A stretch of DNA of 64,000 nt from Branchiostoma floridae (taxonomy: Eukaryota; Chordata; Leptocardii; Amphioxiformes; Branchiostomatidae), in assembly GCF_000003815.2 (NCBI RefSeq), contig NC_049982.1:21586213-21650212 (forward strand). The letters run 5' to 3'. The position numbers were made by a program, and so were the translations under genes. Position 1 is the stretch's first letter, and each line of letters begins with the position of its first letter. Below are positions 5,360 through 57,875 of this stretch, piece by piece. The notes under the pieces are model-generated. The model saw only the letters and a list, made by a program, of their open reading frames with translations. It searched no databases and was not told the DNA's origin.

Positions 5360-8300
5360 ATGAGTAAGAGGGTGTCCATCGCCGCAGTTTTTGAGGAAGA
5401 GGATGATGATGATGCAGGGTCCGCACAGGAAGTCGTGACGTCGGCCATGTCTGCCGTAGCCGGTAACGACTGTTTGGTATGCGGAGAAAAAGCATCAGGG
5501 TTCCACTACGGAGTCTTCAGCTGTGAGGGCTGCAAGGGTGAGTGGAGTCCACAGCAAAACAGTACCTACATCATGTATTACATACAACATGTAGTACATA
5601 CCGGTACAACAAGTTTTATGATAGCTGAAGACTGCTGCACAAAAACCTATTGGTGGCAAGGACTTAGGTGGTTAAGGTTATTGACTTAGGGTACAAAAGT
5701 TCTGGATTAGACTATTTAAAGTCCCTAGCTCGACTTAGGAGAAAGTAAGCTTCACAGGAAACACAACATTTTTTCCTAGGCCTTACTATAAAGGATGGCT
5801 ATTATCAGAAAACAGGAAACTATCAGAGAAAATGAAAGCTATACCGGGAAGACCAGCTTTTTGCTTTGTGTTCCCCTAGATTGCTTTTGCCACTACAAAT
5901 ACCCATAAGATCTTCTCAACCAAGATCTTCTTACTAGTATGTCCCCCCTCCCTTTCCCAACACCACACTTACTGCAGGGTTTTTCCGCCGAAGTGTGACC
6001 CGAGGCCATGTGAAGGTCTGCAGATGGGGGAACCAGTGCAGTATGGACCTGTACACCAGGAGGAGATGTCCCGAGTGTCGCCTCCGGTCCTGTAAGGCTG
6101 CTGGCATGAGACCTGACTGTAAGACCCTTCCTTGTGTGAATAGATGTAGAACATTATACCATTGTTATCAAATATTTCCCCCTCCCTTTGTCACCTCCTT
6201 GAACAGAGGTGTCTATCAGTATGTGTTCCCACATTTATGATTTATTACCATATGCGGGTATGTATGTATATATTTGATGGAACACATTTTTACTGTATAA
6301 AACTGTGGAGAGTAGTGCCATTCGGCTTTCTTTGTTTTACAGGTTTGCTCTCCCAGGCCCAGCGCAGGTCGAAAGCAATGTGGCGGAAAATCAACGAAAA
6401 CACTCATCCAGCAAAGACCACTGCTAGTGCTACTGCTAGTACTAGTACTACCGAGGCGTCTGCCGATCAAGACCAACCAGAAGTGCCACCAACAAATGAG
6501 AGTGCTGAAGAGCCATCACCAAGGTTACCGGTGTGTCCTGACTCTAGCCCTAGCTGTCCCCAGCTCCAGGATGTGTCATCATCCTCCGTTACTCTACCTT
6601 CCATAGAACAAAGAGAGATAAAGACTGAGAAAATATCTCTGCCTGCCAGGGAGGTAACATCCTCAAGCATGCCGACAGGCCCGCCCATGACCAAACAAGC
6701 CTTTCACGCCTTTGCGGCCAAGGCTGGCAGAGACATGATGTCATTTATATCTCTGTTGGCCCACGACCCCGAGATCCTGTCCCAACCAATCAAAGACAAC
6801 ATCACTGACGTACCCCATTGTACGGACAGCACGTCTGACCGCAGTCCATCCTTGAGTATCTCTCTTTCTTGCGCGGATGCTGCTGCATCAAAGCCCTCCA
6901 CGTCAGCTGAAGGACTTTTGCCTGCTACAGCCAATCAGAATGTAGAACTGACCAAATCACTAACCTGCAGGGCGTCACCTGTCCAGGGGAGTGACTCATG
7001 CTCAGGAATAACTGATGTTGCCAGCGGTAGCACAGCAGGGAAAGAGGATGATGATAAAGCAGCCCTTGTGGCTAGACGGGACAAAGGGCCTGCTTTTATA
7101 CAGCACCTTTCTTCACAAAATCTGGTAATTACTTTAAATTTCTAGAATTCTGTTTTTGCAAAACCTCAGGAGCATAGCCTTTTGCATATTCATGTCATGA
7201 TAGATATTGCTATCAATACAACTTTACAAGTCAGCCAATGTGGTAATGTGTATTCAATGTATGTTGGATATCAAAGTAGTTGGTTGTAGTTCATCATCGT
7301 ATTTGGTTGTAGGTACAACATGTTTGTTTACGTACAAGTTTGGCTTTTTCAAATGCATTCAAGAGCCTTACAATTTGGTCACTTATTTTGATGACTTTGG
7401 ATAAAATGATAAAGTACTCAGTGAAAGATTATTATATTTCAGCCATACCATATATGGTATGGTGAAATATATTGTATTCGTAATGTTTCTTTCTTTCTTT
7501 CTTTCTCCTGTCAAATCTTCAAAGCGATTCATCTCCGTCGTTCCATGACCTAATGACCTGAAATTTGGCACAAGGGTAGAGTGGGTCAATACCGAGGTGT
7601 GTTTTTCATATTTTTTTCATATCTGCCTCTAAAATGATTTTATTGAAGTTTAAAGGTCATGTTTTTACCAAAACGGTATATTGTGGCACCCTGTTCCCTT
7701 GAATTACAATGGAATGACCTTAAATTTGGTGTAGATAGGCATTAGATAGTTGTTAAAATGATCCAAGTAAATTTTTTGGCATAAACCAATTTCAAATAAT
7801 TAATTTCTGCACTTTTCTGAGGGAAAATTGGTTTTCTTTCGGTCTTCTCCCGTGAACTCCAGTGACCCCAGAGCCCACACGTGCCAGGTGCCAGCGGTCT
7901 GGGGAGAGCGAGAGTTAATTACTTTATGGACGCCAGCCAATCAGCGACGAGAAAGGCGAATGCTAGTTAATATTCATAAGCGGGGCCTTGCAATCCCGTA
8001 TATACACAAACAGATGCATATTACAGCCTTACAGTGGCCATATGGTACCCTGTGCCCGGTTTGAAATTGTAGTTTGCGAGGATTTGGAGTTCAGACAGGG
8101 TCATTTGAGGGGTAGCGGACGGTACGTGTGCATTGAACGTTAGTGTCGATGACTTTACCAACATTCCGCACGGCACTATCAATCATTTTCGGCAGATTTG
8201 GACAGGGAAAATTGGACAGTTTGAGTTTAGTTTTGATACGTAAGTTTGACAGTGGCGAGAATGGATGTATTTTTCCCGAACAAATGTAGGTACTTCTAGT

Positions 8301-15164: not shown

Positions 15165-15750
15165 GTGGCAACCCAATTCCGAAAACAGTATACTCCATTA
15201 GAAAGTAAAGTTACGATGTGTTTGATGGCAAAAAAAACAGACATCTTTAAATCCCAGGATTATCTGAACAGGTCTGACAGGAGATTAATTAAAATACCGT
15301 CCTAGAGCCGCTTTTACAGTAAAAAATCTTACGTATTTATTGAAACCCCTAGTAACATTATGTCAAAAACAATTTTGACGTTATTTATCTGTAAGTGTAA
15401 GTTACTGTAACGTTACAGCTACAACAAAACAAAAAAAAACGAATTCCAAAACTCTCAGCTTGCTTCAAAGGTGGGACCTGGATTGCTTACTTGTCATAGC
15501 TATCTTGGGAAAACATTACACATGAATGTACGTGGCTACAATGCTATGTAGTTGAACCGCTTGTGTACATGCACACATCCCATTTCTAAACACTAGACGA
15601 CTCTATTGCGAAATACACTTCCGGGGGACCTTTGACCAGCCCTTTTGTTTAGACAAGTGACGTAGGTGATTGCCCAACCACAGAGACCGGAACTGACTAG
15701 ACATCGCTCTGCGGGTCAACAACCTACAGTTTGAGACTTACCAAAGCAGT

Positions 15751-16206
15751 TGTAACAGTGGTGTTCAAGGACTGCTAAACCGAAGACGCCTAACGGCTTA
15801 AGCCTTTTGGCCGAACGGTTTGCACGTTCGATTTGTGATCCGGCTGCCCGGGTTCGGCGGGGGTTCGAATCCCGGGAGTCGGGGTGTTGTTTCTTTCTGT
15901 TCTTACTCGCCCCTCTGGTTGTTTCACTGGTTCCCACGCCGGCCCTGTGAGTAACAGGCTTGTATGTGCCACACAGGGATGTCGATCTCGGAGATTCGAG
16001 GACGAATCTTGAAAAGAAAAGGGGGAGTAGTGTAACAGTGGTGTTCAAGGACTGCTAAACCGAAGACGCCTAACGGCTTAAGCCTTTTGGCCGAACGGTT
16101 TGCACGTTCGATTTGTGATCCGGCTGCCCGGGTTCGGCGGGGGTTCGAATCCCGGGAGTCGGGGTGTTGTTTCTTTCTGTTCTTACTCGCCCCTCTGGTT
16201 GTCTCA
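15751..16206 (+). mobile_element. LTR mini-element (TRIM) with tRNA-like sequence in its LTRs
   Basis: Two 176-bp direct repeats, 15751-15926 and 16031-16206, differ at one base. Each starts TGTAACAG and ends CA. A 104-bp interior starts one base later with a primer-binding site TGGTTCCCACGCCGG (15928) and ends with a polypurine tract GAAAAGAAAAGGGGGAGTAG (16011-16030). The target duplication is CAGT (15747-15750 and 16207-16210). Each LTR carries tRNA-type pol III boxes: A-box TGGCCGAACGG (15808-15818; 16088-16098) and B-box GGTTCGAATCC (15862-15872; 16142-16152). There is no coding capacity, so it needs an autonomous LTR element. It fits the class I recall as Helenus TRIMs, including the 4-bp duplication of animal members. 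Open frames across it are meaningless. Confidence 0.88.
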
Positions 16207-16210
16207 CAGT

Positions 16211-18180
16211 CATTCTCACGTGAGTTTGCCGAGCAGTTTCACTATGGTTACCGCTTTACGAGTTTTCAAACGTCAATTTACAGTTCTGTGAATTAGGAAT
16301 GCTTATTTGTGTTGCTTGAAAACTCGCACGTAAAGACTTGGGGTCGAGCATTTTGCAACCGCTGCAGTATCGAGGAGGCCGATTTGGGGGTTTGCAGTTT
16401 ACACACTTGTCTGCAACTGGAGCGATTTAAAAATATATTACCGAAGCCAACATTGTTAACTTGGTGGTGGCTAAAACGGCAGTCTCTCTTGTTTTTCTAA
16501 GTTGAATTCAAGGTCTCATGGGGTTATTGTCTCGCCGTAAACCCGATATTTTGTTCTGAACAAAAAGTTGTCCTTGGTCTGTCAAAAACCGGACTCACAG
16601 TGAATGGATAAGTACAGTCGGCTCTAGAGATTGTTTACCTCACTAAGCCCGAGCAGTAACGTTACAGTAGTCACTATATGGTATAATACTGTTACTAGAA
16701 TTTTTGCTTCTTTCTCAGACTAGTTAGACAGTCTCAAACTCAGACTACTCAGTCTTTCTATTTACATTTATTTCTGTGTTTGTATGGACAGTTGGATACC
16801 GATAGCTTTCCTTTGTTTTGATGTGTTTTCAGTTGTTGTTTTTTGGCTTCCGAAGATTTTGAGAGTTGTCACTAAAGCTAAACAAGTAGTAGCCAGTTAG
16901 ATTCGCTGCAAAGTCAATGGATTTTTCTTCTTTAGCGATAGACTTTTTGACTGAGGATCTTCATCATGCTTGCTTCACGTGAACCCAGTAAGTCGAGCAC
17001 ATGTACACAGGTGGGCGTGACGTCACAAAGCACACACCTCCAGCAACACGGCCTATGCCCCACTTAATACCATCAATGGCTGCTATGCGTGACCACAAAT
17101 AGTGGCATTCTCCCTCGGGAAAAACACCTCAACTCAATGGAGAACAAGGGTTTACTCGGGGTTGCTTTGGTGATGTCATTCATAAGTAGGTCATGATATA
17201 TCACAAAATTTAAAGAGGTTTCAAAGGGTTCTCTGGTCGATCTAAAAGAACGTTGTGTGAGACGAAGCGAACAAAGATCAACAAAGGGAAGTTTTCCCAG
17301 CCGCATGTGTTTTCTTAGTAATCATACCCGTGTGTCAGGCTGCTTGTTTTGTGTGCGACATTCACATTATTCACTTCATTCATAATCCACGTGTTTTTCC
17401 CATTGTTGTTTCTATATAGTATAAAGTTTAATATGCCTGAGTGTATATTTTGTGTTAGATTTTGCTTCGTTGATTTTTGTCGGTATGAACCATAACTATT
17501 GTTAGATGCATACCGGAGTGCACGTGTACTGTACAACTGTTGTGTCGAAGCAAACATCAAATCTCATTCGTTTGCACGCTTTCAGTTTATCCTCTTTCCG
17601 TATTCACTCAATCATTCAAAACGCTGTAGATAAATTCTATCACCGACATCTTGCGCAACATGCCTTCCTGTCGTATTTGTAAGGGTTCTAATGATAAGAA
17701 AAATACGCTGACGTTGATTTTGGGCGCTGGTGCTTACATTAACCACTAGCTATTGTTCTTGTACTTTGTGCAGCGATGGAAAATATGAGTCAGGTAGTCA
17801 TGTGCTATTTTCAACCAGCAGGTCGTTCACGATTCAGGTAACCATGGTTAAAGGATATCCCCGGAAGTGACGTCAATAAAGATTGCTAGTCTCTTCCCTA
17901 AGTAATAAAGGCTCCTTCGGCAAGTGTGAATGTATACGTGTCAAGCCATGCATTAAGCTTGCCAAAACGACATGAAGATACACTGTATATAAACCGCGAG
18001 TATTTATCATTTGTCAAAGGAGCTGTTCATGGAGTATTTTCTTTAATAACTGACCGTAAATTTTGTTAATTTCTTGTATCATTCAACCCCAAGAGGAGCC
18101 TTGTAGAGGCTATCAAGGGGATCCCGTCAAAAAGAGGGGAGGGGCACGAATACAATACTTATGACCTGCTGCTGAACCCG
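16211..18180. other. Intergenic, no gene seen
   Basis: No exon-like signal. A perfect palindromic CRE, GTGACGTCAC, lies at about 17017-17026 and could belong to a distal regulatory region of gene B. Confidence 0.3.
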
Positions 18181-24191: not shown

Positions 24192-27100
24192 ATGAATGAC
24201 AAAGTGACAGTAGATTCAATCTTCGAGGATGAGGATGGGTCGAACGATGAGAAGAATTTACCTCGTCCACCGGAAGTGGGCCGAACCAACTGCGTGGTGT
24301 GCGGGGACAAGGCATCCGGTTTTCACTATGGTGTCTACAGCTGCGAAGGGTGCAAAGGTAATTGAAAACCAGTATCCAATGGATTTGTACATTAGTTTTG
24401 TGGATGTTGATTATGCGTTTACTTTTGATAACGTTCTCTGTTCAAACTTACAAACAAACATATTTTTCGTTGTGGGATTAGAAGTTGAACATTAAACGTA
24501 TCGAGAAGTATTAGATCTATAGCGTAAATGGTACTTATTTATGTTTGTCTACATTGATACACCTGGCTGCTTTGGACATTAATGTTCTAGTTGCCAAATT
24601 ATACAACTAGAAGCGAATATAAACGACCAACTTTCCCCATGTTACGATTCGTTGAATGCAAAAGAAAAGATGCATGAAAGGGTCTGGCTGACAATGTTTT
24701 GTTTTTTCCTTCAGGTTTCTTCAGGAGAAGTGTGAATCGAGGCTATGTCAAAGCCTGCAGATGGGGGAACACATGCAGCATGGACCTGCACTCCAGACGG
24801 AGGTGTCCTGACTGTCGCCTCAGGTCCTGTAAGGCCGCTGGGATGAGGCCCGACTGTAAGACCCCTTCACCTCTACTATTACTACTTTGAAAAAAAATTC
24901 AGAAACAACACCTTGTTGCACACTCAAAGGAAGCACGAAGTTCCTTTTTCTTTGTTAGCAGGTGTCCAAGATGTATGTTAACGTGGCTGTATCTGTATGT
25001 AGGTTGGTCTATGTACATGACAGAAGGACTAATTTCTTTACCCTTGAACGATCTTTAAATACCATTTGCACGAATAGACTAATATCAGTAGAAATTGTTT
25101 TCTATACAATCTCATATATTTCTAAAAGTCAGTGAATGAAATTAAGACATTTACCTTCATCTGTCACCAGGACAACCATCAGTTTCAAAAGTAGTTTTCG
25201 ACGATACATAAGTGTCTGGTTGCTATTTTGTAGGTCTGCTGACCCAGGCCCAGTGCAGGTCGAAGGTGATGTGGCGCCAGCGTCAAGCATCAAAGTCATC
25301 AGCGGCCGGATCAAAGGGCGGATCTGCCGGGACATCTCCACTGTCCAGTCAGAGTGTGGCGTCCAACCAAAGCACGGAGGAACACTTCCCGTTCCCAACA
25401 GTGTCAGAAATACCCACCACCGTCGACAACGGTCTTCAGTTGCCTGAGAGCGGTAACGTGCAGCCCTTCACGTCCGAGGCCGCAGACGACAGCAGCTCCC
25501 AACAGCTATTTGAAGAGTTGATGGCATCGTTCGACGTCGGTTCGACGAATCCGATGTTTGCTCGCTCCGACTCTATGGGCAGTGAAGACGTGCTGTCCTT
25601 CCTGTCGCTCCTGGACAATGACTCAGAGCTCTTTCCGACTATAGACCCAAGTGCCACGAACAGCGCTCCAACTGGCCATCCAGCAACAAGCCAGATTGCC
25701 ATCGTGGCCCCATTGCAGGTAGAGGACACGTCTACACACACAGAGGCGTTCCCAGTTCTCCAAGCACAGCCAAACAGCTCAGAAAATGTCGTCTCAACAA
25801 AAGATATACCCACTGTATATGCCAACGATCAATCACTGGGGTTATCTCATTCAGATCCCAGCGTTAACAGCTTTCCTGGCAAAACAGAAGCACCAGCTAT
25901 GTCACAGACTCCAGAAAAGAACGACACCAAAGATGGCGCCTCCGATGATCTTGTACGCCAGAAAAGCACCCCAGAAGTATGTGGAACGAAAAAGATGTTT
26001 GTAAGGCCTGGCATAATAGAAGAGCTTGCACCAAACCACCAGTTGATGATATCGGAAATTTTTGAATACTGGAAGGCAAACGCTGCCGCAGAGGCCAAGT
26101 ATAACAAACTGTGTTATGAGGTAAGCGACTAGATATCAAGTCATAAACTATGCCTATAATGATGTGATCATGATTTACATTGCAAAAATTAACCTTCACG
26201 ACTACGTTGATAGATGTTCCTGTCAGTTTTGTATGGAGATAATTTTTTTACCATTTACAAACAAAGAGTGTGGTTAATGGAATGGGCATCTTTATTCCGA
26301 CTCAGGAATCGATGAAGGAAGGGACTCCGGATGAAAAACGGCGGAGAACCTTGCATGAAGGAGACATGTCCGTCAGGAGGTACGTGTCGTACTGCAAGTC
26401 GTTACGGGGCTTCAACGACCTGTCCATGGCGGATCAGATAGGTGTCATCAAGGTAAGGTCACTTCTACGACTGTACGAATGTATCAGATGAGTGTATCAG
26501 TGATTGGGTGATATTAGTTTCAGTTATCATTCATCTAATCCGTCATCGAAGGTTAGACATCCAGGTGAAAAGATATGTCAAATAGCATTTAATCAAGCAT
26601 TCATTCAATCATGTAAGAATCATAAAGACCTGCATCAAATGAATGCTAAAGTTTGTGTAATAAGTAAGTTAGCGTAAGAAGGCATGTTCCATTTTAAGGT
26701 GCTCCTGGATTACACAAATGTAATAACGGACATTCTTTCCTGTATCACAGGGATCTATTTTCGAATATGGTATCATGAAAGGCACTACATGCACTGACGA
26801 TTTCGCGTTCGACAAGTGTCGCCAAATTGCACTGTTATGTAAGTACCGTTATACTTCTAAAGTGCTATTACTTTGCTACTGTAAAGTCATAAATGTTCAC
26901 GGTAGTTTTATTATCGCGATGACTTCGAAATTGAAAGCATAACACCACTGATATGTGTTTTGTAATTCTCCTGGACTGCAGTATTGTTTCAATCGCCACC
27001 TTAAAACTAAAACCACCGCAAAATAAAACCACCGCAAAAGCAAGTCCATTTACAGTATATTACCCACCTGACACGATATGTATGTAATTCTATGGTAACA

Positions 27101-31568: not shown

Positions 31569-34500
31569 ATGAGTGAGAGGGTGACAGTGATGGCGATCTT
31601 TGAGGAGGAGGAGCCCATGACCATCCCTGGCCCTCAGGACGTCGAGAGCGGGAACTGTCTGGTGTGTGGAGAAAAGGCATCGGGCTTCCACTACGGGGTC
31701 TTCAGTTGTGAGAGCTGCAAGGGTAAGCAAATTAGCATGGTTACCGATATGCTTTTCTTCCATGGGTATGGTATGGATTGGTAATGTGCTTAGAGTCCAT
31801 TATTTCATTTTTCGCATCGTAGGTGTAGTCTTATGAGTGTCATATTACCGATTCATAAAGTGGGCATTACAAAGTAAATCTCATCACTTTCGCCAATCGG
31901 GTGATGCAGTCTGTAGTGTGGTTGTGATTGAATACCATATCAAAAGATTACATGTATAAACTTGTTATAACCATACAATAAAACCGTGCATTTGCAAGCT
32001 GTATGTTTAAAGCATTTAATCGCAGTGGTTGAGTAGTCTTCATTCAAGCTGAATTATGTGTCGATTTTTGTAGGTTTCTTTCGAAGAAGTGTGCACAAAG
32101 GCAGTGTGAAGGTCTGTAAGTTTGGGAACAGGTGCTGCCTAAACCCCAGCACCAAGAGGAGCTGTGCTGACTGCCGACTCCGGCTGTGCAAGGCTGCTGG
32201 CATGAGGCCTGATTGTGAGTCTACATTTTCGGTGTACGATGATATCATAATGACAAACACGTTGTAGGACAGAAGATGCATAGAGTGCCTTGCTTTCAAA
32301 GTCGTGCTTTCGTTGTTTCCTTGCAATTTCATTGTTTCCTTACAATATACAAGGTGTCCAAAGAATTCGCACTGTTGGTGATTAATACGAGAGTCCTTCA
32401 AACCGTAATGCCTTTGGTTTTATAACAGGCTCATATTTTCATCAAATGAGATGAAATTTAAGACAAAGGTAAAGGTATATATCGTCTTGAGATTGAAATA
32501 TCTGAATTTGTTGTTCAGGTTTTTATGACCGACTGAGTTGATTTCAAAATTATCACACCCCTGGAAGTCTGTTAGAAGATACGTTCCTCTAGATTTGACA
32601 AACTTACAAAATTTTGTTGGATTTCACGAGTGGAAATAAGCGTGTAAGAATCTTTGGTCATCTTTCAGGTCTTCTCACGGACGCTCAGCGCAGGTCCACG
32701 CCGCTGTGGCGGCAACATCGCCCTGCAGGCCAGTCCTCTAAACCCGGACCTTCCTCCTCACCCTCACCACTCATCAACCAAAATGGCGACATTTCATCTT
32801 CTGCATCCGGGACATCATCACCACCATGGTCTGATGACGGTAGCAGCAGCACGGCCCAGGGCATCATGGGAGACCCTGAGGTTGCCAGGATGTTCGCCAA
32901 GCCTGAACTGGTACAGCTGCTGGCTCCAAACCACCAGGAGATCATCTCTGAAATCCTGGGGTATTGGAAGAAGAATGCCAGCGAAGAACGTCGGCACATC
33001 GAGGAACTATGTAATGTGGGTGTTCGGTTGCGATCTTCAAAACGTTTTACTCTGCTGTATCCATTATATATATATGATGTAATCTACATCCCCTATTCTA
33101 AGACTTACACATTATTGGAATCCTGGTTGGAGTCTCTGCTGACAGAGACTCTAATCGGGATCTTGCAATTGGCGATTCTGCCAGATCGCAATATCTGCAC
33201 TGACTATCTATCGCAATGAACTAGATAGTGTGACGTTATGCCTTGTTGCTAGCTATGTTTAGATTTAAAATCACGAAGGAGAAGAAACTACAACGCCCAC
33301 TTAGATAAGGAATTACTGACATTATACAATTTGTTCAAAATTAACCGTCACCTGAGGTACAATTGTCTTGAGGGACAGCTTCTTGACAACAAGTACAGCT
33401 GCTTGAAATCTAGTGAGTTGGTTAATCATGTTTTGATGTTTCATAAAACTCATTTGTTTCCTTGATACAGGACACTCTGGCGGGCAAGACCCTTCAGGAA
33501 AAACAGCTGAACTCCCTGAAGCACGGAGATGTTTGTATTCAGAGATGCATCGCTTTCTGCAAGGCAATCCGGGGATTCAAGGACCTCTCCATCGATGATC
33601 AGATCGCGGTCGTTAAGGTAATAATAATCCTTCTCTGCAGAATATGTATGTTTCGGGTTGCTTTTGCGATAGCATGTTTGCTACTGACATGGATAGCAAG
33701 AATTTCAATCTCAAAGACTCTATGTCTGTGTCTAACGTTATATCCATTTTAACTGAGACGCCAAAGTTAATTAGGTGCTACTTTAGATCGACGGTCGCAG
33801 GTTTGCCGTTAATGAGATTACTGTCTTATTTTTAGGGATCCATGTTCGAGTACTCCATGATGCGATGGACTGTCTCTTGTCAGGAGTGTGAAATAGACAA
33901 CGAAGTGACTTACCAGGTGGCAAATTTAGGTAAATGATGGCTACTACATTTATTGATACGGTATGATTTACATGAATTTGTTAAAACAGTGCGTTTTTGA
34001 TAATCATTCAGCCTGTCACAATGGCCATTGACAAGTTACACTCGGATATACGGGTTACTTGACAAGTGCATGTAAATACGCGCGGCACTTACAATGTACG
34101 TGGGTACCGACAGCAGAAAAGTTTAAAAGATTTAGAAAAAACAGGTACATATTGATGAAAGAAATCGGCGTTGCAAGTAGTATCACAGAATAAAGAGACT
34201 CTTTTTACACAACCAGTGCTTTATTCTCACCGACGTTTCGGTGACCGTCTGTCACCTTCTTCAGGGCAATTCTGACTGGTTCACATTGTACTGCAGGACA
34301 GATCGATGTCGCTGCTCACAGTTCAGATGCGGTCACAAAACGAAAAAGTATTTACATATGTATATACAGACAGCTTTATGCACATATTTACAATGCGTTC
34401 CCAAACGTAAAGGAGTGTAATACATCCATAACGCAATCAGTTGTCAATTAACGATGAATTAATGTAAGTTTTTTCTACTTCTTAAGAATATTGTCCCACA

Positions 34501-36147
34501 CGTGGCTGAGTCTGTACCCCCCCTCATCTCGGTTCATGACAGGAGACGACTTCCTAATCCATACAGCCTCCTTTATCCAGCGGGTGCATCTGTGGTCCTC
34601 TCTGTCAATCACCTTGGCCCCGTCCCAGTCTATGACACAGTTATTTCTCATGATGTGGTCTGTCACTGCTGATTTGTTCTCTTCTTTCTCAGCTTCCTTC
34701 TTCTGCGATCTAGTGTACCGTCCCCCCTTGATGTTCTCTGCCTCTTTCCTGTGTTCTGCTAGTCTGCATCCAAATGTTCTCCCTGTCTCCCCAATGTAGA
34801 CTTGGTCGCAGCTCATGCATGGTATCCGATATATACAGTCTGTCTTCACAGTGTCTTGCAGTTTGTCTTTTGGATGTACCAGAAGGTTTCTCAGTGTGGT
34901 TTTCGGCTTGACTGCTGTAGCAATGTTGTGTTTGGTGAATATTCTCTCAAGAGGTTCAGTGATGCCTTTGATGTATGGTAAGGTCACCCTTCCTTTCGAT
35001 GTTTCCTCTCGTTTCTTCTTGTCTTTCTTCTGCTTGGTTCTATTGCTCTGTTGTTGGACTTGTCTGAATGTCCAGTCCGGGTAGCCACACCGGGCAAGGG
35101 CAGACTGAATGTGTTGCATCTCCAGCTGTCTGTCTGGTTCTTCCGTGACGACTGCCTTGCACCATGTCTCTTTATTCAGTGACGTACCAACCTGATGAAA
35201 CTGTTCACGGAAGTAGTATCACACCGAGTGATTCTAATAGTAAGTGTACTGTTAGGTAGACTCCCACTCGCACACTACAACTACCATCTTCTCAAGTGTT
35301 TCTGGATATACATCCGGGCGCGCACACTTGCAACAGGGTAGATTAACAGCCATTCGGTATCGCTGGATTAACCCTACCCAACCTCCAACCCCTCCCCCAT
35401 CAGCTGACCCCTTCCCATCTCCAGCCCACCCCCTCTGACGTGGTTTTGTACATGTGATTGTAGTGTACACCAAGGGCTTCATGGACACCTACATGAAGTG
35501 GGTTGAAGGTATGGCAAAGCTGAACGTGGACCCGATCACAGTACACCTTCTCTGTTGCGTGGTCGTCCTATCACCTGGTAGGTGTTTCCCAAACAGGCGT
35601 TTCTTATACTCATTTGCATGCCTTCTGACTTGATTCCATGGCGAAGTCAGGTCCTCCTGAAGTAATGATAGCACAAATCTTTGAGATTCAGTGCATGTGC
35701 TGATTCTTTGAATCAAACGGTAGTCTGTAGATATTGTGATGCATGCTAGCCTGGTGATGTCGAGTCAGACGTCGTTCGTGAAGAAGCCCCTATTCTAAAA
35801 AAAATTTTGTAAGATCATTTGTCCACATTTCTTGTATGTGACAATCTGCATGAAGACTGGAAGCCAATACGGGGATCCAATCTGGCCTTGCCTTGTTCGC
35901 CACTCCAGATCGCCAGCATATTGCCGACCGTGACACACTGGAAAAGGCTCAGGAACAGTACACAGACTGTCTGCAGGCCTACTGCAAGGTCGCCTACCCG
36001 AATGAGCCGATGATGTTTCCAAACCTCCTCGGCAAGCTGACGGAGGTCCGCAGTGCCGGACAGGCCTTCGAGAACGGCCTGCGGCCAGACTACGAAACCA
36101 TGCTTAGAGTGCAGCCACTGATATCGGAGATTTGGCCCAGAAAGTAG
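31569..36147 (+). CDS. Nuclear receptor C, NR1H type, short hinge, 411 aa
   Basis: Exons: 31569-31722, 32074-32214, 32669-33015, 33471-33617, 33836-33929, 35464-35577, 35909-36147; total 1236 nt. Zinc finger 1 uses Cys 30, 33, 47, 50, but the P-box is CESCKG (Gly to Ser), as in SF-1/FTZ-F1 receptors. Finger 2, [20 protein letters not shown], is the most divergent of the five. The hinge is about half the size of its paralogues' (exon 3 is 347 nt against 767-893) and lacks the FxxLL-type motif. LBD starts near VAPNHQ-like [17 protein letters not shown] and ends in helix 12 LISEIWPRK. The start ATG follows the acceptor TTCTTTGCAG. Intron 5 holds a Penelope-like element. All three differences suggest this paralogue has diverged in DNA binding and cofactor use. 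Confidence 0.9.
34188..35210 (-). mobile_element. 5'-truncated Penelope-like element with GIY-YIG domain
   Basis: A minus-strand open frame (34475 up to about 35205, no start required) encodes a PLE C-terminal region. A lysine-rich linker is followed by the GIY-YIG nuclease core: [20 protein letters not shown], then RLAEHRKEA, and later NKSAVTDHI and EAVWIRK. The reverse transcriptase is missing. The insert is flanked by a perfect 13-bp duplication AAGTAGTATCACA (34175-34187 and 35211-35223), which fixes both ends and shows that truncation happened at insertion. It lies in intron 5 of gene C, antisense to it. Confidence 0.88.
34232..34264 (-). ncRNA. Hammerhead-ribozyme-like motif of the Penelope element
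   Basis: On the minus strand: CTGAAGA, a perfect 6-bp stem GGTGAC/GTCACC with a small loop, then GAAAC and GTC. These are the conserved hammerhead blocks in order. Hammerhead motifs are known in PLE terminal repeats. Stem III is minimal or absent and stem I was not resolved, so activity is uncertain. Confidence 0.5.
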
Positions 36148-39815: not shown

Positions 39816-42800
39816 ATGACTAACCAGGTGACGTTAGCAGAGATCTTTGATGAGGAGTTGTCTAAGGACGGAGATGGAGTCGACGTTCCTCCACCTATGG
39901 AGCTAGCTGCCGGGGACTGTCTGGTGTGTGGAGACAAGGCCTCCGGATTTCACTATGGAGTCTTCAGCTGTGAGGGCTGTAAGGGTGAGCATTTGAATAA
40001 GAGGGTCTGCATGCCTTACTGTACTTTTGTGAGATGTAGCAAGCTGTTTTCATTCACTACTTATCATAGCCATTTGCTCTAGATTTGATGTTAAGGGTTG
40101 TCTGTAAATCATTCATAATTGGTCCCTTTAATTCTACATAGCATCTTTTTGATTATTCTGATTTCATGCTTTAGGGGCATTGACAAATTGTTCATGTCAG
40201 AAGACAAGATGCCAGATTTTCAACAAGTCACAAGGGAGCATCTGGTTGTGTATTTACAGACTACTAGTACTTTTGTCAGGTCATCCTATGGAATACCATA
40301 GAACAATCCAATCAAGTCATACTCAAAACCTAACATAACATTAATGGTAATCATTACCGGTCCTCTAACCTAGGTACCATCCAACGCAGTAACCGCTGGT
40401 TCAATCTTTTGCGTCTTTTGCGTCCTAGCCATGGAGCCAGCAAAAAGATTGAGCCTGGGGTTACTACTGATTGCTATGGAAAATGGTATCCAGGCTACTG
40501 CGAGTCCTCCTGAACTTACCATTAACTGTTTCTGACCCTCCTAAATTTACCATTGAGTGTTGCCAGGATCCCCCTGTGCAGACCCTCAAACAACAAGTCA
40601 GAAGTAGATTGACTGATGAAATATATTTCTTCTTATTTTTTTTCGCTCTGCATCACATAGATAATAAACCAGGGAAGATCATATTCGGAGGGTGAGTGAA
40701 CTTGTTAACGAAGTTATCCTCTCACTACTGCAGGATTTTTCCGCCGAAGTGTGACCCGAGGCCATGTGAAGGCCTGCAGATGGGGGAACCAGTGCAGTAT
40801 GGACCTGTACACCAGGAGGAGATGTCCCGAGTGTCGCCTCAGGTCCTGTAAGGCTGCTGGCATGAGGCCTGACTGTACGAATTCCTTACATTTGTTTTTG
40901 TTGTCTATATGATCTTATTGTTAACCTTGTACCTGACAGTATTTTTACATGGTCCAAATGCCAGAAACGTTTAAAGTTAGATGTTCCCCCAATCATTACA
41001 GTACAATACTTAGTAACTTACATACATATGTATCAAAGTTTGTTTTTGTTCTGTTGGGTCATAACGAAGTGTACCTCAGTGTTGTTTGTTTATAGCTTGT
41101 CAGCTGTGGCATATGTTTTCTTGAATAATGGAATTACAGTGTATAATAATTTGTATAGTACAGCTGTTTCAGTTTAATCCATTAACACTCCCGGTACATG
41201 TTTGGGTCAAAATGCACAGGCGTCGCAATTACACACTTGTTGTAATCTTTTCCTTTCTAACTCTTGACACAAAAAGTAGGTTGAGTGCTTCTAAAAGGTC
41301 TAACTGCTTTCCAGGTCTGCTCACCCAGGCCCAGTGTAGGTCCAAGTTATTGTGGCGAAAATCCATTGCACCAAAACCAGTCAAGTCCGAACGCGCAGCG
41401 TCATCTAGTACCACTAATAGTCAGGACTCACCAACCATGCCCAATCCGGACCAGAGTGGAGTTCCTGACGAGGTTTCTCACAAAAGCAGTCTTTCACCAG
41501 CTGCTCCAGAATCAACCTACACAAGGAGCATCTCTCATGATGCTCTCAAATGGGTTACCTCAACAGAGAACAAACAGTCTACAGAGGATGACGACACACA
41601 TTCTACTGTCAGGGAAGTGACGTCCCCGTCTGTGGATTCAGTGCATGGCCCATCCAGATCTGTGTCCACAGGCAGCAATGACATGTTGTCCTTCATTACT
41701 GTCCTTGACACTGACTCAGAGGTTGGGTCTAATGCGACATCACTGGAAAAAATCGCAGATGTGGAGCCTATCATTGTAGGAAAGGAGGAAGTTGTGACTG
41801 TAGCACCTGAAAAATGTAAGAAAGAGGAGGACACGGAACTCGTCGCCGAGACGCTGCTATCTCTTCAGACTTCAGACGGCAAAGGAGCCGAGTCAGACCC
41901 CATCCGCAGGAGATATTTGCCCGAGGATCTCTCCCAGGTAGCGCGGATGGAGAATCTGTTTGTGAGACCAGACTCCATCCAGGAGCTGGACAAACAACAC
42001 CAGGAACTCATCAAGGCGATACTGGAGCACTGGGGACAGAACATTGAGTCTGAACGCAAACATGCCATAGCAATGTGGGAGGTGTGTAGTGTTGTACCTT
42101 AACCTGGGCTTTTAGGCTTCTGACTGTTTTGTGTAGCATTATCCTGTAAAACAGAGCTAAAAATTTGTTCCAACAAGACAAAAAGTAAGCTATATAGTAA
42201 TCACATTTACTGCAGTATTTCTCAGAATTCATTCGAGTGATCAATAAGTTGTGAATAAGACTGCAGTAGGACATTTAAAAGCATAATGCACTAATTTGTT
42301 GTGTTGCAATAAAGTCTTATCGCTGTACTTGTTCCGTACCAACACATGTACTGAGGAACGTTCATACTAATCATAAAGATCTTATGTATGTGTGCTCCCT
42401 TTCCAAACATGCATGTACCAGCTGGGGTTCTTCTCTAATCCATAGACTGCAGGAAACTGTAAATTTTATACCTAAACCATTGGTCATAATTCCTTTCTTC
42501 AGGACACAGAAGCTTGTAAGACCCTGCAGGAGAAACAGCTGCGGTATGTGGAGCATGGAAACAAGTTTGTGGAGAGGTACATCTCCTTCTGTCGGACCCT
42601 GCATGGCTTCAACAGTCTCCACGTGGAAGACCAGATCAACGTTGTCAAGGCAAGTTCTACAATGGTCTGACTATTGATACCTTATCGAATATTGATGCCT
42701 TGGATCTGAACTTTGTTGGTATATTCTTACAGTATTTCTGAATCAGTGTTTGTAGGATTTGAGCCATGTGCCTGATGACTCACATTTATTCACTCACAAT

Positions 42801-50054: not shown

Positions 50055-52884
50055 ATGAACTTCCAAGTGACGGTGTCGTCGATCTTTGAGGAGGCACAGT
50101 CGGAGCAAGATGAGGAAGGAGACCTCACGCCTCAAGACCTGACGATGGGAGGCTGTCTGGTGTGTGGAGACAAGGCCTCCGGCTTTCACTATGGAGTCTA
50201 CAGCTGTGAGGGCTGCAAGGGTGAGTTAAACAGGATGCATGAGTGAGGCAAGGTTTATCATCATGACTGGATGCCACAGGGCGGTATCTGTGGGAATCGC
50301 ACCCAAGGAGTTCCCAACCATGTGACTGTGTGACAATACGGGACCTTGCGAGAATGAACTTCATGCGGGAAGTTTCTGACGCAGCTCGCGCCTTGTCCTT
50401 CAAAAGCCGTGTGAATACGTCGTTTGCAGCCTATCTTTGTTCGTCTGCCTACCCTATCTGGCCACACCAATTTTGTTACAAGCATGCCTCAGACTAGCAT
50501 GAAAGCTTATCTGGGTTGATATGATACATGTTGAAGTTTGTTACTTTCATTCAACATAAGGAAATTGCTTACCTCGAATTCTAGGTGACACATCCGTCGG
50601 TCTTTTTCAGGGATGATGATTCAATTACTCTTAGCACATGACCTTAGGGATCAACTCCCGTCTCAGCTGCGTGTAGATGGCCTCCTTTACCCCCCTCATG
50701 AAGTCATCCCGTTCAGGGTTCAATATTTGTGCTTTGTCCAAGGGGCTGAAAAATGTCCCAGTGATTCAATATTTATTTGCTGCCCAATCTCTGATGGGGT
50801 ACAGACACTTAGGGGGTACACTTTAATGGTACTTACATTGCAAGGGAAAATGTCACTTCTTAAGGGGATATAGACACTACAGATATGCTGCAGATTTATC
50901 TTCTTCACAGTCATCCGTAGCCATTGGCTTTTTCTATCTATTCAGGATTTTTCCGCCGAAGTGTGACCCGTGGCCATGTGAAGGCCTGCAGATGGGGGAA
51001 CCAGTGCAGTATGGACCTGTACACCAGGAGGAGATGTCCCGAGTGTCGCCTCAGGTCCTGTAAGGCTGCTGGCATGAGACCTGACTGTAAGGCACTGTCA
51101 CTCATGTAACACTTACCAATACTAGTAGATCTATCTATAAGGCCGCTTAGATTTGATTTTAGTTGTCCAATTTTTACATGGATCAATTACTTACTATTGA
51201 AGTGTTTGTATGTTTGTTTGTTTGTATGTGTTTGCAGATTTTTTGACAACTTTGAAAAACTTTTTTACAGGTCTGCTCACTCAGGCTCAGCGCAGATCAA
51301 AAACCCTGTGGAGGCAGCGGCAGGCATCACAACCCATCAAACCTGAATCTGCTGTGTCCTCCACCAATCAGGAGCTGGCACAGGTACCCTCACCCAATCA
51401 AAGTGGAGTTCAGCAAGACCAACCGTTGGTCACTGCTTCTGAAATCGCAAGCTTATTAAGTTCCGCAGGTCCTGACAGAGTGCTCACAACACAGTCTTCA
51501 TCCGAAATGCCTTCCCTTCATCAGAACATTGCACCTTGTGATTCTTCTTCATTTTTTGATGAAGTCGTGTCTGTGTTCATAGATGTCACGCAGGATAACA
51601 TCCAGTATTGTCGTTCTGAATCTTCAGGAAGCGAAGACATGCTTTCATTCTTTGCCCTCCTTGCAAATGGCTCAGAGCTGTTGTCAGAACCGATTTGCCT
51701 GGACACCATCCCATCTGTTTCCCCTGTTCTATCCAGCACAACTGAAGGTGGTGCAGACACTTCCTTACAGGATGACAGTAGAACTGAGCATGCTCAGACT
51801 CTTCTTTCTCTGCATACAGGTGTCAAGTATGAAGCCCCCTTACCCACCAATAGTCTTTCAGCATTGCTGAAATCTACAGGGTCTTCAGCCAATCAGAAGC
51901 CAGACCTTCCATCCTCCAATGAAGTGGCTGATTGCAAGGCAAACAGTGTCGATAGCTGTTTAGGGTTGTCCGTCGCCCCAGCAAAGTATGAAGAGCCGGT
52001 GCTAGGGACAAGCAATGCTGGCTCTACCATGTCCAAACTCTTTATCAGACCACAGCTCATGCAGCAACTGTCATCAGACCACCAGGCCATCATTTCTGAC
52101 ATTCTAGCATACCTGAAGGAGGCTACTGAGGCAGGCCGCAGGCACACCTTGAAGCTGTATAAGGTATGTTTGTAAATGTTATATGACAAACAACATTGTG
52201 TGTAATCGTGTTAAGTCCTGTGTTTGACTGTAGCGTGTAAATGTTCCCTTGCACATTGAGGCAGCTGTGGGCAGGGTGACATGGGCTCTGTATGAATTTT
52301 GTATTTCCCAGTGAAGAATTATTTTACTAATTTTACTATCTCTGTTATATACTTTGTCTGACCCTTTCCTTTTCTCTCATGACCTCAAACCTGCAGGCCA
52401 ATTTGAGCTTTTCATGAATTTCGTGTTTTCTGCATTTGTTGTTACCACTTTCAATAAGGTTATTATCAACAGTCTTTATCTATTTGTGAACAGTCTGTTG
52501 TGAATGGGCTTTAGATTTCATTGTGCTTTTTAGTTTGTAAGAAGATATTGTCCTTAGGAAGAATTGATGAAGGTTTTAGTCCCTTAGCAGCTTCCTGTAG
52601 ATATAATGTCAAGCTGTTTAATACAATGGGAGAAACTATAATAATGATGTAAATTTGATGCCTAATTTAGATACCAGTGAGTTGCCATGTACACAACAAT
52701 GATAAGCTTATGATGAGACACATTCACCCATTGGTCATCCATTGATCTGTGGGTTAGTGATACTATGGGTTGATTTTAACGGTGAACTACAAGAGGTCTG
52801 CTCCTATATTATGAGTGCTGGTATCCACATCCACAGAAATGAAAAACAGTAATCCAAGCATTTTTCTCCATGTGGATGCCAGCA

Positions 52885-52919
<35 letters not shown>

Positions 52920-55900
52920 GGGTTAGTCAACCGTATAGAAGAAGAAGTCCATTTTTTAGTGTTCTATATACAGTGATATGCGCAATTCTTTTAGTAGTAC
53001 TTTTATTGTAGACACACAGTGTAAACAGTTAACCAAGGACGAACCGTTTGTATATATATTGACAGCACTGCTGAAAGAATTGCGTATATCACTGTATATA
53101 GAAGACTACTAAAACATTTACTTCATTTTCTATATGGCTGGAATCACAAAGAAGGCTTAGCCCCCTCTATATAAAAAGTACTGGCATTCCCAGCCACAGA
53201 AATGAAAAACACTGTACTCCAAGCATTTTTCTCCATGTAGGAGGCGCTGACATGCAGGACTCTCCACGAGAAGCGCATGCTGTGTGTACAGAGTGGCACG
53301 GTCACAGTACAGAAGTACATCACCTTCAGTAAGTCTCTGCAGGGGTTCAACGACCTCCCTCTGGACGACCAAGTGGCCGTTGTGAAGGTGAGATGCTTCT
53401 ACAGTGCAGATAACAATGACTTGTAAAGCTGGGTTGTAGGGGTGGGTACAGGGCCAGTTCCCAGGTCTGGATCTGATCCTGTTTAGCAGCATATCATATG
53501 CTTAGATGTTGAATCCACTTCTGCCCTTATTCGAACCCCATGCCCTTAAAACATATATTCAAATGTGCAGAAATCTGCCTTAGATGTTACGATGGACCAT
53601 TGGGTCAAAACGTGTTTTAGCGAAGGAGCTGTGTGCTCACAGCAAAGGGGCTGCGTGCTCGGCGAAAGAGCTGTGTGCTCACAGCGAACGAGCTGTGTGC
53701 TCGGCGAACAAGCTGTGTTCACGCAGAAAAGGGGCTGCGTGCTCGGCGAACGAGCTGTGTGCTCCCAGCGAACGAGCTGTGTTCACGCAGAAAAGGGGCT
53801 GCGTGCTCAGCGAACGAGCTGTGTGCTCCCAGCGAACGAGCTGTGTTCACGCAGAAAAGGAGCTGCGTGCTTAGCGAACGAGCTGTGTGCTCACAGCGAA
53901 CGAGCTGTGTGCTCAAAGCGACAATGGGAATATATGGACGTAAATGACGTATTTGCATAATAGTAGACAAAAGCGTCACATGATATGTACGCATTTCCTC
54001 AAAAGTGCGAAGGGACTGTATACGGAGCGTTCTTGTCCTAATTAAATTGACGATTTGCTACAACTTAGAACTTCAGTTTTGCGGAACGTTTAGAAAACTT
54101 AGCCTATACTAGTACATGTAGTATGATTTTCATCACTCTCTCATGATTTTTTTTTACATTTGACACATAAGCACCCCACTTGAAAATGAAGAATTTGGCC
54201 CAATTCCTCTGGGCTCAGGTCACCAGAAATATGTTGGAGTAAGAATAAACACAACAGTAGTCAGTGTTAAACTACAATATTTGAAGGTAAACATTATATA
54301 ATTGCTTGCAAATGTCCTGAGTAATAAGACACTTACTCTCTGGCCCCAAATATATGTTAATGTGATAAACTTCTAACGTTAACAATAGGTAATTATACAA
54401 TATAAAATGTACAGGCGACTTTGAATGTGTAACACCGTGCAGCACCTCAGGTGTTGATGACAATGAATGTACAGGAAGACAATGTACTTCATTTAAAAAA
54501 ATACCAACAATCAAGTTTCGTAGTTCTAGTAGATCTACTTCTACACGAATTTCAAATGGTTCCATGTGGTATTAGAAGCGAAATTCCTTACCAGTGTCAA
54601 ATTGCTGAAGGAAGGGTACTCTAGCAACAGGCCTGAAAAAAAGAAAGAGCAACGTGGAATGCATATTACCCACAAACAATAGATCAGTCCCAATTAGTCA
54701 TTATCCCTCGTAGGTGCAAACAACTTAACAAGGCAATGAAGGGGGCTAAGATCAAAGCCCCGTGTAACGGATTGCTACCTACCACAGTCCTTTTGTTTTG
54801 CAAGGCGAAAAAAACAGATTGCGTAAAATGGAAACGCTGTGGCTATTGACACACTGAGTGTGCCAATAGCCAAACAGGCTGACACACCGAGATGCCAACC
54901 AGCCAATCAGAGCTTGTAACATGACTTTCCCGACATTATTTTACACAGGCAACAGTTGATTAGACATTGTTCGGAAGATTAGACATTGGAATCTTTGAAT
55001 CTTCGAATGAACACGTTACAGACGTATTCAAGTTTTGACCTACGTTTGGATACCTGTTAATGCCGTGAAACTGTGTATGTTGACCGTAGCGTATTGGGGA
55101 GAGCGTTGACCTGCGAAGCCATGTTACCAGTTCCGACCCCAGTTCGAATCCGCGATAGAATTTTTTTTTCAATTGTCCTTTTACCTTTTTAAAAAATCCA
55201 TACCACAGTCCTTTGTTTCGTTTTGTAAGGCGAAAAAAACAGCTTGCGAAAAATGGAAATACAGACTCAACTAGACTATAAAACAGAGTTATTTCGAGGG
55301 CCAGGAATTCTGCACACTGTGATATTTTCCCTCATAACTGGTCTACGGGAAAGAGGGTATTCAAGACGCTGCCTTGTTTTGAGTTGGCCAATTTGGTCCG
55401 AAGCGCAACTTTTAAACTTACTTTAAAGCCAAAATATTAACGCCTCGTACAGTTGTAAATTTTCCAACTCTAAGGGACCGTCCACTGTACTACAACTGGG
55501 TGTGAACAAGATAGTGATAGTGAACAAGTGGTACTCTCCAAGCAGAGGTTAGGCGCCGGCTGTTTTTGTAAACGTTTTTTTAGTCAGGGTTTTGACAATA
55601 CAAGATACAATACAAAATAGAAAGCCCGATGGAAACGACTAAAAAACGTTTTAAAAAACAGCCAGAGCAGAGCCTAACCTCAAGGTTGCTGGAAAAGCGT
55701 AGACGTGGAACAGATAGGGGTAAGCCGGCCAGAGGAATTGGGCCAAATTCTTCATTTTCAAGTGGGGTGCTTATGTGTCAAATGTAAAAAAAAAATCATG
55801 AGAGAGTGATGAAAATCATACTACATGTACTAGTATAGGCTAAGTTTTCTAAACGTTCCGCAAAACTGAAGTTCTAAGTTGTAGCAAATCGTCAATTTAA

Positions 55901-57875
55901 TTAGGACAAGAACGCTCCGTATACAGTCCCTTCACACTTTTAAGGAAATGCGTACATATACGTGACGCTTTTGTCTACTATTATGCCAATACGTCATTTA
56001 CGTCCATATATTCCCATTGTCGCTGTGAGCACACAGCTCGTTCGCTGTGAGCACACAGCTCGTTCGCTGAGCACGCAGCCCCTTTTCTGCGTGAACACAG
56101 CTCGTTCACTGTGAGCACACAGCTCGTTCGCTGAGCACGCAGCCCCTTTTCTGCGTGAACACAGCTCGTTCGCTGAGCACGCATCCCCTTTTCTGCGTGA
56201 ACACAGCCCGTTCGCTAAGCACGCAGCCGCTTTGCTGTGAGCACACAGCTCGTTCGCCGAGCACGCAGCTCGTTCGCTGTGAGCACACAGCTCTTTTGCT
56301 GAGCACGCAGCCCCTTTGCCGTGAGCACACAGCTCCTTCGCTAAAACACGTTTTGACCCAATGGTCCTTCGTAAGATGTATCTCCTGCCCTTAGTTGGAT
56401 GCATCCCAAAACAAGATGACTTGACTGTTGCAAAAAGTGGGGCTAGCTTTGGAAAATCTGTCTCTCTGTTAGTGTTAATTTTTGGTCAGGCCAAAACCTG
56501 AGATTCAGATTGCTTGCAGTCTTCTACTTTAAAACTGCCCAGCATCAATCCAGTGTACTGGTACCCACCATTAACTTTGAACACAAACATTCCATATTGT
56601 GTTGAAAGGGTTCCCTCTTTGAGTGCTTTGTGATGCGAGTACCTGTCTTCCTCAAGGAGTGTGGTCTTGACATTGGAGTCTTGGAACGGCTGGTGGCACC
56701 AGGCAAGTGCTCAAACCTTATGATTATGCATATGTGTGTGTTTTAGTACTGCTGCAGTTTCAGTGTATTTTGCCAGAGGGTTCTTACTGTCAGGAAGGTG
56801 ATGTGTCATGCATTTCCTACCATACCCTGTTATACATGTATGTAAGTCATGGATTAGAAAGACAAAACATGAATCAGGTCTACACTGAATTTGACTGAAG
56901 TTGCTTAATCTAAACCCTGTTAAGGTAGCCTCTTGATGAGAAGGTAATAGACTCACTGACAAGAAGCCGCTACAAAAATAACAGTGGTTGACTGGCTTTG
57001 CTCAGATTTCACTAGTACAGGTTTAACTGTATATGTAATACATGTATACATATATGTATACATAATTTTATATAAACCAGAAAGTTTTGAATCCAGTGCA
57101 CACCCAGGAGTTCATGTCCATGCTGAAGTCCTGGTATGAGGGGATGTGGAGGCTCAACATCGACTCCATCACCGTGCACCTGCTCATCTGTGCCGTCATT
57201 TTGTCCCCAGGTCATCTTTAAGCATCATTTTTTCTCTTGTAGCAATTTCAGTAGAATTTCTGACTTTTTTTATTTTATTTGATCATCAGGGCCTGCCTTC
57301 ATACCTATCTTACTGTTAACATATAAAGACATGAAAGTCAGTTAGAATTCCCATATTGCAAGTTTAACATTTATCAAAAAATTACAGAATTTGTAATCAG
57401 TGCTTTTACATTTTTTATTTCATTTCCTGCTATGCTCATTTCTTTTTCTAATGAGAAGCAATCAATACCAATCTTAAATGTGCCAGAACACCACTCTACA
57501 GGTACATGTAGGTTTCTCATGCATCTTCAGGCATGTAAAAAAAAAAGGAAACTATGTACAGTTCCATCTTTTCATGATCAACAGAATATTTTAGTGCATG
57601 GTTTTCACCAGAATTCTGTTTTGCGTGCACCTACAGATCGTCCCAACGTCGGAGCCCGTGGCACCCTGGAGAGGGCGCAGGAGCGCTACGTGGAGTGTCT
57701 GCACGCCTACTGCAAGGTGGCCTACACGGACGAGCCGATGATGTTCCCGCGCCTTCTGAGCAAGCTGACGGAGGTCCGCAGTGTGGGACAAGCCTGTGAG
57801 AGAAGTCTGCTGACGGAGTGTGGGCCCATGGTCAAGGAAAACCCGCTGGCCTCCGAGATTTGTAGTCCAGATTAA
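50055..57875 (+). CDS. Nuclear receptor E, NR1H type, 597 aa
   Basis: Exons: 50055-50220, 50946-51086, 51271-52163, 53241-53387, 56609-56702, 57097-57210, 57637-57875; total 1794 nt. Zinc finger 1 uses Cys 34, 37, 51, 54 with P-box CEGCKG; exon 2 differs from gene D's at only 2 of 141 bases. The hinge is the longest of the five, with SUMO-like IKPE and VKYE and the motif [21 protein letters not shown] about 376-597; helix 12 is LASEICSPD, where the usual Trp is Cys. The exon 5 donor is GC (CCAG|GCAAGT), confirmed by reading phase. Intron 3 carries a hairpin copy of its own acceptor region and a palindromic MITE; intron 4 is enlarged by a foldback transposon. The start ATG lies 5 bp after the acceptor ATATTTTCAG. 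Confidence 0.9.
52811..52889. repeat. Hairpin containing a copy of the exon 4 acceptor region
   Basis: Arms 52811-52830 and 52870-52889 pair over 20 bp with one mismatch (ATGAGTGCTGGTATCCACAT). The loop repeats the sequence just upstream of the real exon 4 acceptor (53194-53240), including GCATTTTTCTCCATGT, but the acceptor AG is GG in the copy. An (AT)n run follows (52888-52915). Confidence 0.65.
52912..53172. mobile_element. Imperfect palindromic MITE in gene E intron 3
   Basis: Inner arms 52962-52991 and 53074-53103 (TTCTATATACAGTGATATGC...) are complementary over 30 bp with one mismatch. Weaker outer similarity (TATATAGAAGGGTTAG against inverted TATATAGAGGGGGCTAAG) places the ends near 52912 and 53172. 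No coding capacity. Confidence 0.6.
53588..56373. mobile_element. Foldback transposon in gene E intron 4
   Basis: Inverted arms 53588-54212 and 55729-56373 begin TACGA(T/A)GGACCATTGGG and end at CCAGAGG. Each contains about 300 bp of tandem units of two kinds: one with GAACGAGCTGTGTGCTCACA, the other with GTTCACGCAGAAAAGGGGCTG. The remaining arm sequence is also shared. The 6-bp flank AGATGT (53582-53587 and 56374-56379) looks like a target duplication. The 1.5-kb centre has no transposase; it holds a tRNA-like repeat and a fragment of the palindromic MITE. Cys-rich frames inside the repeats are artefacts. Confidence 0.85.
55080..55170 (+). repeat. tRNA-like sequence inside the foldback element
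   Basis: A-box-like TAGCGTATTGG (55087-55097) and B-box AGTTCGAATCC (55141-55151), followed by a T-run (about 55160-55169) that would terminate pol III. The acceptor stem is not convincing, so tRNA-derived rather than a tRNA gene. Confidence 0.45.

Follow-up and report, generated by a model that had tools for sequence, protein, structure and literature searches.

A putative Helenus-type TRIM in amphioxus, its tRNA-Glu primer and its likely Ty3/gypsy partner

Helenus (TRIMp3) is a group of small LTR elements whose LTRs carry the two boxes of a tRNA-type promoter. The available part of Kojima (2024, PMC10886601), which reports a screen for elements under 1000 bp, gives the motifs as TRGCY and YGG for box A and GGTTC for box B. 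It also describes animal members with 4-bp target duplications (TSDs), as the initial annotation of the locus studied here had stated. Kojima infers that animal Helenus elements are mobilised by Gypsy elements; the evidence for mobilisation given in that part of the paper is largely a resemblance between PBSs, together with one partner-like interior in fungi. Tandem arrays are reported there for LTR-11_DR. Amphioxus is not mentioned in the available main text. In other literature, as represented by titles and the openings of abstracts, neither an amphioxus Helenus nor integrated copies of a whole primer were found.

Two further systems are useful for comparison. According to the same part of Kojima (2024, PMC10886601), Cassandra has a short R, with transcription starting and stopping within the LTR. 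This was the model for the idea, discussed below, that a TTTT run may stop transcription. In Ty3, as presented in the available part of a review (PMC5371799), the plus strand is extended over 12 nt of the primer tRNA and no further, the primer does not pass its sequence on to the PBS, and plus-strand strong-stop DNA is a dead end, as in Ty1.

The element described here lies in a 64-kb stretch of the genome of Branchiostoma floridae, which is called the window below. It occupies positions 15751..16206 on the plus strand and measures 456 bp, made up of a 5' LTR of 176 bp (15751..15926), an interior of 104 bp (15927..16030) and a 3' LTR of 176 bp (16031..16206). In the window the direct repeat measures 177 bp, since both LTRs are followed by a C. 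The two LTRs differ at a single position (15923 T, 16203 C). The unstranded TSD CAGT is found at 15747..15750 on the left and at 16207..16210 on the right. The interior is too short to encode replication proteins. It begins with a spacer of 1 nt (15927), followed by the PBS TGGTTCCCACGCCGG (15928..15942), which is complementary to the 3' end of tRNA-Glu(CUC), CCA included. With the most often captured form of this tRNA, the pairing includes one G-U pair. The PPT GAAAAGAAAAGGGGGAGTAG (16011..16030) ends directly before the 3' LTR. Each LTR holds an A box TGGCCGAACGG (15808..15818 and 16088..16098) and a B box GGTTCGAATCC (15862..15872 and 16142..16152) at matching positions. At 15860, near the B box of the 5' LTR, the window copy has G, with C the base at this point in 81 of 83 other LTRs. 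Near-identical LTRs, PBS, PPT, the 4-bp duplication and the paired boxes had all been noted in the initial annotation, and each was confirmed. The single LTR mismatch agrees with its view that the insertion is recent.

The window holds several other features. A minus-strand ORF of 214 aa at 34475-35119 has no Pfam match; it is taken here to resemble a GIY-YIG/Penelope-type fragment. Five ORFs (6162-7145, 25212-26132, 32614-33219, 41128-42102 and 51210-52175) have a motif in common, and Pfam gave no match for the four tested, 32614-33219 being left out. Two minisatellite arrays (53619-53914 and 56020-56342), separated by about 2 kb, have similar units and opposite orientations. A fragment of a rhodopsin-family 7TM receptor (Pfam 7tm_1, 3.2e-21) lies at 59391-60092 on the minus strand.

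The element is best explained, with a probability of roughly 0.83, as a recently integrated, non-autonomous TRIM of Helenus type that replicates in four steps with the help of a Ty3/gypsy partner. First, guided by the two promoter boxes of the 5' LTR, pol III would make a short transcript that crosses the interior and enters the 3' LTR. Second, a Ty3/gypsy element resident in the same genome, similar to the TRIM in PBS, PPT and TGTAAC end, would lend the proteins with which this RNA is packaged; the minus strand would be primed by tRNA-Glu(CUC) and the plus strand by the PPT. Third, integrase would insert the DNA and thereby produce the 4-bp target duplications. The second and third steps are strongly supported. 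The fourth is supported by fossil copies, in what would probably be this order: the first plus-strand strong-stop DNA enters the primer tRNA, and synthesis can pass A58, commonly reaching the tRNA 5' end or its vicinity. Such DNA would normally be a dead end, as in Ty1 and Ty3, and for that reason the PBS would not be renewed from the tRNA. Some of these molecules would be rescued by microhomology joining or by fold-back, and then integrated.

Further copies were sought in the window's own genome (G000, 513,431,437 bases) by four DNA searches. The best 40 candidates were scored in each, out of 1092, 752, 804 and 88; therefore all counts given here are lower bounds and describe copies selected for similarity. 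The first search gave 46 matches from the best 40 of 1092 candidates, and 40 close loci were fetched, including the window copy (L009). All 40 have the organisation LTR-interior-LTR. In five of them this is extended to LTR-interior-LTR-interior-LTR, each flanked by exact TSDs. An exact 4-bp TSD is present in 35 of the 40 loci, three of four bases agree in 2, and fewer in 3; when the flanks were permuted 5000 times, the mean number of exact TSDs was 1.4 and the maximum 6. Outer LTRs carry no substitutions in half of the elements (20/40), and the mean divergence is 0.6% within outer LTR pairs against 1.3% between copies. Further copies with 4-bp duplications, which the initial annotation had named as support, are thus present. 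Its alternative, copies that lack PBS and PPT and look like tandem SINEs, did not materialise: the close copies share LTR, PBS, PPT and 4-bp TSDs.

Older relatives also exist. One locus (L013) holds an older copy about 77% alike to the young LTR. Starting from this copy, 45 matches were obtained from the best 40 of 752 candidates, and 39 further loci were fetched. In 32 of these 39, the fetched stretch gave no match to the interior or to a tRNA. TSDs were scored in 32 old copies with script-found ends, a set that takes in rows from L013 and copies with an interior, one copy (L066) being added by eye; 6 are exact and 5 have three of four bases. The old copies include interior-less LTRs with TSDs. 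The LTR-interior-LTR arrangement is kept in L053, whose interior is 85.6% identical to the young one.

Pol III use by the TRIM is suggested by its motifs. The A and B boxes are separated by 54 nt, start to start, in each LTR, a spacing presumably fitting a long-armed tRNA. Both GGTTCGANNCC and the combined A-plus-B pattern occur at only the two LTR positions when both strands of the 64-kb window are searched, and the exact B-box pattern has no further occurrence on either strand. Besides the boxes, the LTR has a T-arm hairpin. Its likeness to a tRNA goes no further in the programs used: ARAGORN recognised no tRNA in the LTRs, and Rfam gave a weak match of the hairpin to tmRNA, below the family's gathering score (in a scan of the window stretch and two loci, L018 being the one of the two that shows the match). 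A tRNA model scan had been proposed as the way to name the parental tRNA; with ARAGORN and Rfam, no parental tRNA or SINE was found for the LTR. Rfam likewise gave no 5S rRNA match up to E 10 in window positions 15600-16400.

A run of TTTT lies directly 5' of the A box (15805..15808, plus strand) and is a putative pol III stop if reached in the 3' LTR. As a strict terminator it was rejected: TTTT is missing from the first and last LTR in 25 of the 40 young elements. It is kept as a possibility. The run reads CTTTAT in 44, CTTTT in 27 and other variants in 14 of the 85 young LTRs, and it differs between an element's own LTRs in 7 of 40 elements. Of 42 old LTR copies, 38 have TTTT before the A box.

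The strongest rival holds that the boxes are passengers: the element would be an ordinary pol II TRIM whose LTR has taken in a SINE, now decayed, and the promoter would be dead. Besides the variable T-run and the failure of ARAGORN and Rfam to recognise a tRNA, this agrees with the conservation of the A box among 42 old copies, in which windows over the A box have low ranks (about 131-154 of 160) and those over the B box intermediate ones (about 20-97 of 160). This set excludes L013_2, L013_3 and L062_2, which are young or of another subfamily, and keeps near-duplicate loci. Conservation ranking was dropped as a test of the boxes, which it does not single out; decaying copies say little about selection. 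Against passenger boxes, A-like and B-like boxes are retained, similarly spaced, both in the young LTR and in the old copy of L013, which is about 77% like it; other old copies retain them too. Of the 85 LTRs of the close loci, 81 carry the A box and 80 the B box in exact form. Neither AATAAA nor ATTAAA is present in the window element. Passenger boxes are thus a serious but unlikely alternative to a pol III-transcribed TRIM.

The primer could be read from copies that have captured it. Only one of the 40 young loci carries a tRNA (L014), in a set chosen for likeness to the normal element and so biased against tRNA-carrying copies. In L014, the reverse complement of tRNA-Glu(ctc), called as such by ARAGORN, directly follows the PBS in the first interior. 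A search with this junction gave 46 matches from the best 40 of 804 candidates, and the 39 loci other than L014 were fetched. A TRIM-type LTR, matched partially in some cases, precedes the tRNA copy in 38 of the 40 loci; the LTR of L122 and L125 is a different one, not of TRIM type. ARAGORN called tRNA-Glu(ctc) in 14 of 23 further fusion loci scanned (L090-L093, L095-L097, L100-L102, L106, L122, L125 and L126) and tRNA-Gln in L107. Together with L062, L068 and L082, the 40 loci provide 43 tRNA copies. Judged by the pairing of the PBS and by these copies, the primer of the TRIM is tRNA-Glu(CUC).

The captured copies cover A58 without mismatch in all 43 cases. They reach nt 8 or nearer to the tRNA 5' end in 30 of 43 and nt 1 in 8; chance match leaves a margin of a few nt at the end points, and the set is biased to long copies because the query held the full-length tRNA. 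The complement of CCA, TGG, is present in 41 of 43; as proof of a mature tRNA template it was dropped, since the PBS itself holds TGG. Fusions of this kind look like plus-strand strong-stop DNA that was read into the primer and then integrated. Related TRIM subfamilies (L062 on the minus strand, L093, L095 and L097) differ in the surroundings of the A box and have a similar U5 end, and the tRNA-Glu fusion is present in L093, L095 and L097. The copy at 540-765 of L062 (minus) has, by eye, the TSD AGAA.

The tRNA-bearing copies might instead be lineages that spread from one or a few ancestral captures. Such copies are numerous (at least 40 scored loci), and some hold additional internal units. 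Yet their end points on the tRNA range from nt 1 to nt 52 and the sequences that follow are mostly different; the exceptions are L107 and L117, which are alike after the tRNA, and L093, L095 and L097, which all enter an LTR start. In addition, the tRNA occurs in several LTR subfamilies and in the partner, and the close loci, for all their bias, include the single example L014. Spread from few captures is therefore improbable, markedly more so than passenger boxes.

Another possibility is that recombination at the DNA level with tRNA-Glu genes, rather than reverse transcription of the primer, produced the fusions. Transfer RNA genes are dispersed and repetitive, and the TGG at the junction could derive from the element's own PBS. 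But the tRNA is antisense at the PBS in all 43 copies, as primer copying predicts. The eight copies that reach nt 1 run on into eight different sequences, so that no tRNA gene leader is seen in common, and several fusions have TSDs. Recombination with tRNA genes is thus very improbable compared with copying of the primer.

The ends of the fusions bear on their integration. Of 36 fusion loci, 10 show an exact TSD past the downstream LTR terminus, against a mean of 0.47 and a maximum of 4 in 2000 permutations; 12 have three of four bases (mean 3.4, maximum 11), which is a small excess. The 36 loci are those with a script-set LTR start, which is mis-set in at least L088, L122 and L125; in 26 of them the script found no exact TSD. 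In L089, L092, L103 and L110, about 8 to 29 nt of U5 remain before the TSD, and in L116 there are 5-6 terminal nt that could be either U5 or inverted U3. Both L124 and L068 terminate in inverted U3, and therefore have U3 ends at both insertion borders; L109 shows the same pattern by eye, with ATGT on both flanks, and is unscored. The tRNA rejoins the interior in L106, a second LTR is present in L093, and L126 has a terminal rearranged stretch. Exact TSDs follow the last LTR in L090, L095 and L014, with three of four bases in L097 and no TSD in L101. Further exact TSDs among fusions belong to L127 and L137/L145. Finally, L072 and L079 are fold-back copies, in which no TSD is detectable.

The fusions also bear on how the PBS is inherited. 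Renewal of the PBS from the primer in each round, as in retroviruses, should make PBS and captured tRNA agree. At position 11, however, G is found in 42 of 45 TRIM PBS rows (one of them, from L014, mis-sliced) and A in 38 of 43 captured tRNAs. At position 8, T is found in 4 of 7 partner PBSs against C in 41 of 43 captured tRNAs. From these differences we infer that the tRNA does not renew the PBS, much as in Ty1 and Ty3, and that the fusions would be rescued dead-end products. The mismatch could instead reflect a choice between tRNA-Glu isodecoders.

A likely partner emerged from the two fusions without a TRIM-type LTR. The copy in L122 is bordered by ACAA and consists of a 511-bp LTR beginning TGTAACGG, a 1-nt spacer, the tRNA and then 8-9 nt of U5. 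In L125 the tRNA is followed by integrase coding sequence (rve 1.3e-13). A search with the 511-bp LTR, scoring the best 40 of 88 candidates, found 14 matches that enter a PBS: 7 normal 5' junctions, 3 tRNA-bearing junctions (L122, L125 and L137), 2 hybrids and 2 that are not true 5' junctions (L135 and L139). Partner LTRs are spaced 7.8-7.9 kb apart in three pairs (C8, C9, C10). All four compared pairs (L134/L141, L136/L143, L133/L144 and L137/L145) have an exact 4-bp TSD, the LTR end being assumed at TATA for the first two. A 2-kb piece of the C8 copy (L149) matches RVT_1 (4.1e-35) and RNase H (about 1e-34), and L128 has its integrase (rve 1.3e-13) close to the 3' end. Combined from these two copies, the domain order appears to be that of Ty3/gypsy. 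One partner LTR, L131 (G000:C10:6247000-6249013), contains an antisense TRIM copy at 598-1052. This copy is L033 of the young set, and its TSD has 2 of 4 bases, one end being damaged.

Partner and TRIM have several sequences in common. The partner carries a tRNA-Glu PBS and a PPT/TGTAAC boundary, and the two elements share GAGGAC(A/G)AAT, the PPT end GGGGGAG(G)TAG and TGTAAC. In the window TRIM the boundary is GGGGGAGTAG/TGTAAC, which resembles the partner's GGGGGAGGTAG/TGTAAC. The hybrids L129 and L130 join a partner 5' LTR to a TRIM interior and a TRIM 3' LTR; L130 has an exact TSD (GGGT/GGGT) and L129 has none (TTAG/ACAA). The Ty3/gypsy element with the 511-bp LTR is therefore the likely mobilising partner. 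A tandem SINE duplication, for which a repeated unit with a tRNA-like promoter could be cited, has next to no probability in view of the exact TSDs in 35 of 40 loci, the PBS and PPT, the interior-less LTRs with TSDs and the partner hybrids.

A bolder proposal has about an even chance of being right. One Ty3/gypsy reverse transcriptase of this genome may habitually copy the whole tRNA-Glu primer, passing A58 without error, and integrase may accept the resulting strong-stop DNA once microhomology has supplied a piece of U5 as short as about 8-29 nt, or perhaps 5-6 nt as in L116, or an inverted U3 end. If this is true, strong-stop integration would give TRIM and partner a second, regularly used way of spreading. 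It would also seed complete antisense tRNA units, which are possible raw material for new pol III promoters.

The primer, the likely partner and the recombination between partner and TRIM can all be read from one genome. Integrated strong-stop fossils are a natural record of plus-strand synthesis, informative about its stop point on the primer, the methylation of A58 and the minimal LTR end used by integrase. They also carry a warning for annotation. Since tRNA-Glu was called inside retroelements, in 14 of the 23 fusion loci scanned, the count of tRNA-Glu genes in this genome may be inflated.

Among known systems, tRNA-derived SINEs share the A and B box promoter with the window TRIM. They differ in that they are without LTRs and insert by target priming with variable TSDs, whereas the TRIM has LTRs, PBS, PPT, 4-bp TSDs and integrase-type insertion. 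Cassandra resembles the TRIM in having a small-RNA promoter in its LTR, but it is a plant element and its promoter is derived from 5S rRNA; the 5S-derived LTR promoter of Cassandra and Ajax is absent from the window TRIM, whose boxes are of tRNA type. The closest likeness is to Helenus, to which the TRIM is assigned from its sequence features (TRIMp3), and Repbase may hold an entry for this family. Both have two LTRs around a short non-coding interior (within 456 bp here), tRNA-like A and B boxes in the LTR, a PBS, a PPT and 4-bp TSDs. Both would also have a Gypsy-type partner, to which a similar PBS and PPT and the hybrids L129 and L130 point here. In contrast to Helenus as treated in the available part of Kojima (2024), the partner was found directly, through hybrid copies; the capture of a whole primer tRNA and the fold-back copies have no counterpart there. 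The partner, for its part, resembles Ty3/gypsy elements in its reverse transcriptase, RNase H, integrase and a PBS for a tRNA 3' end. In contrast to the Ty3 model, as far as the available part of its review presents it, many copies here extend to the 5' end of the tRNA or near it, and some of them are integrated with TSDs.
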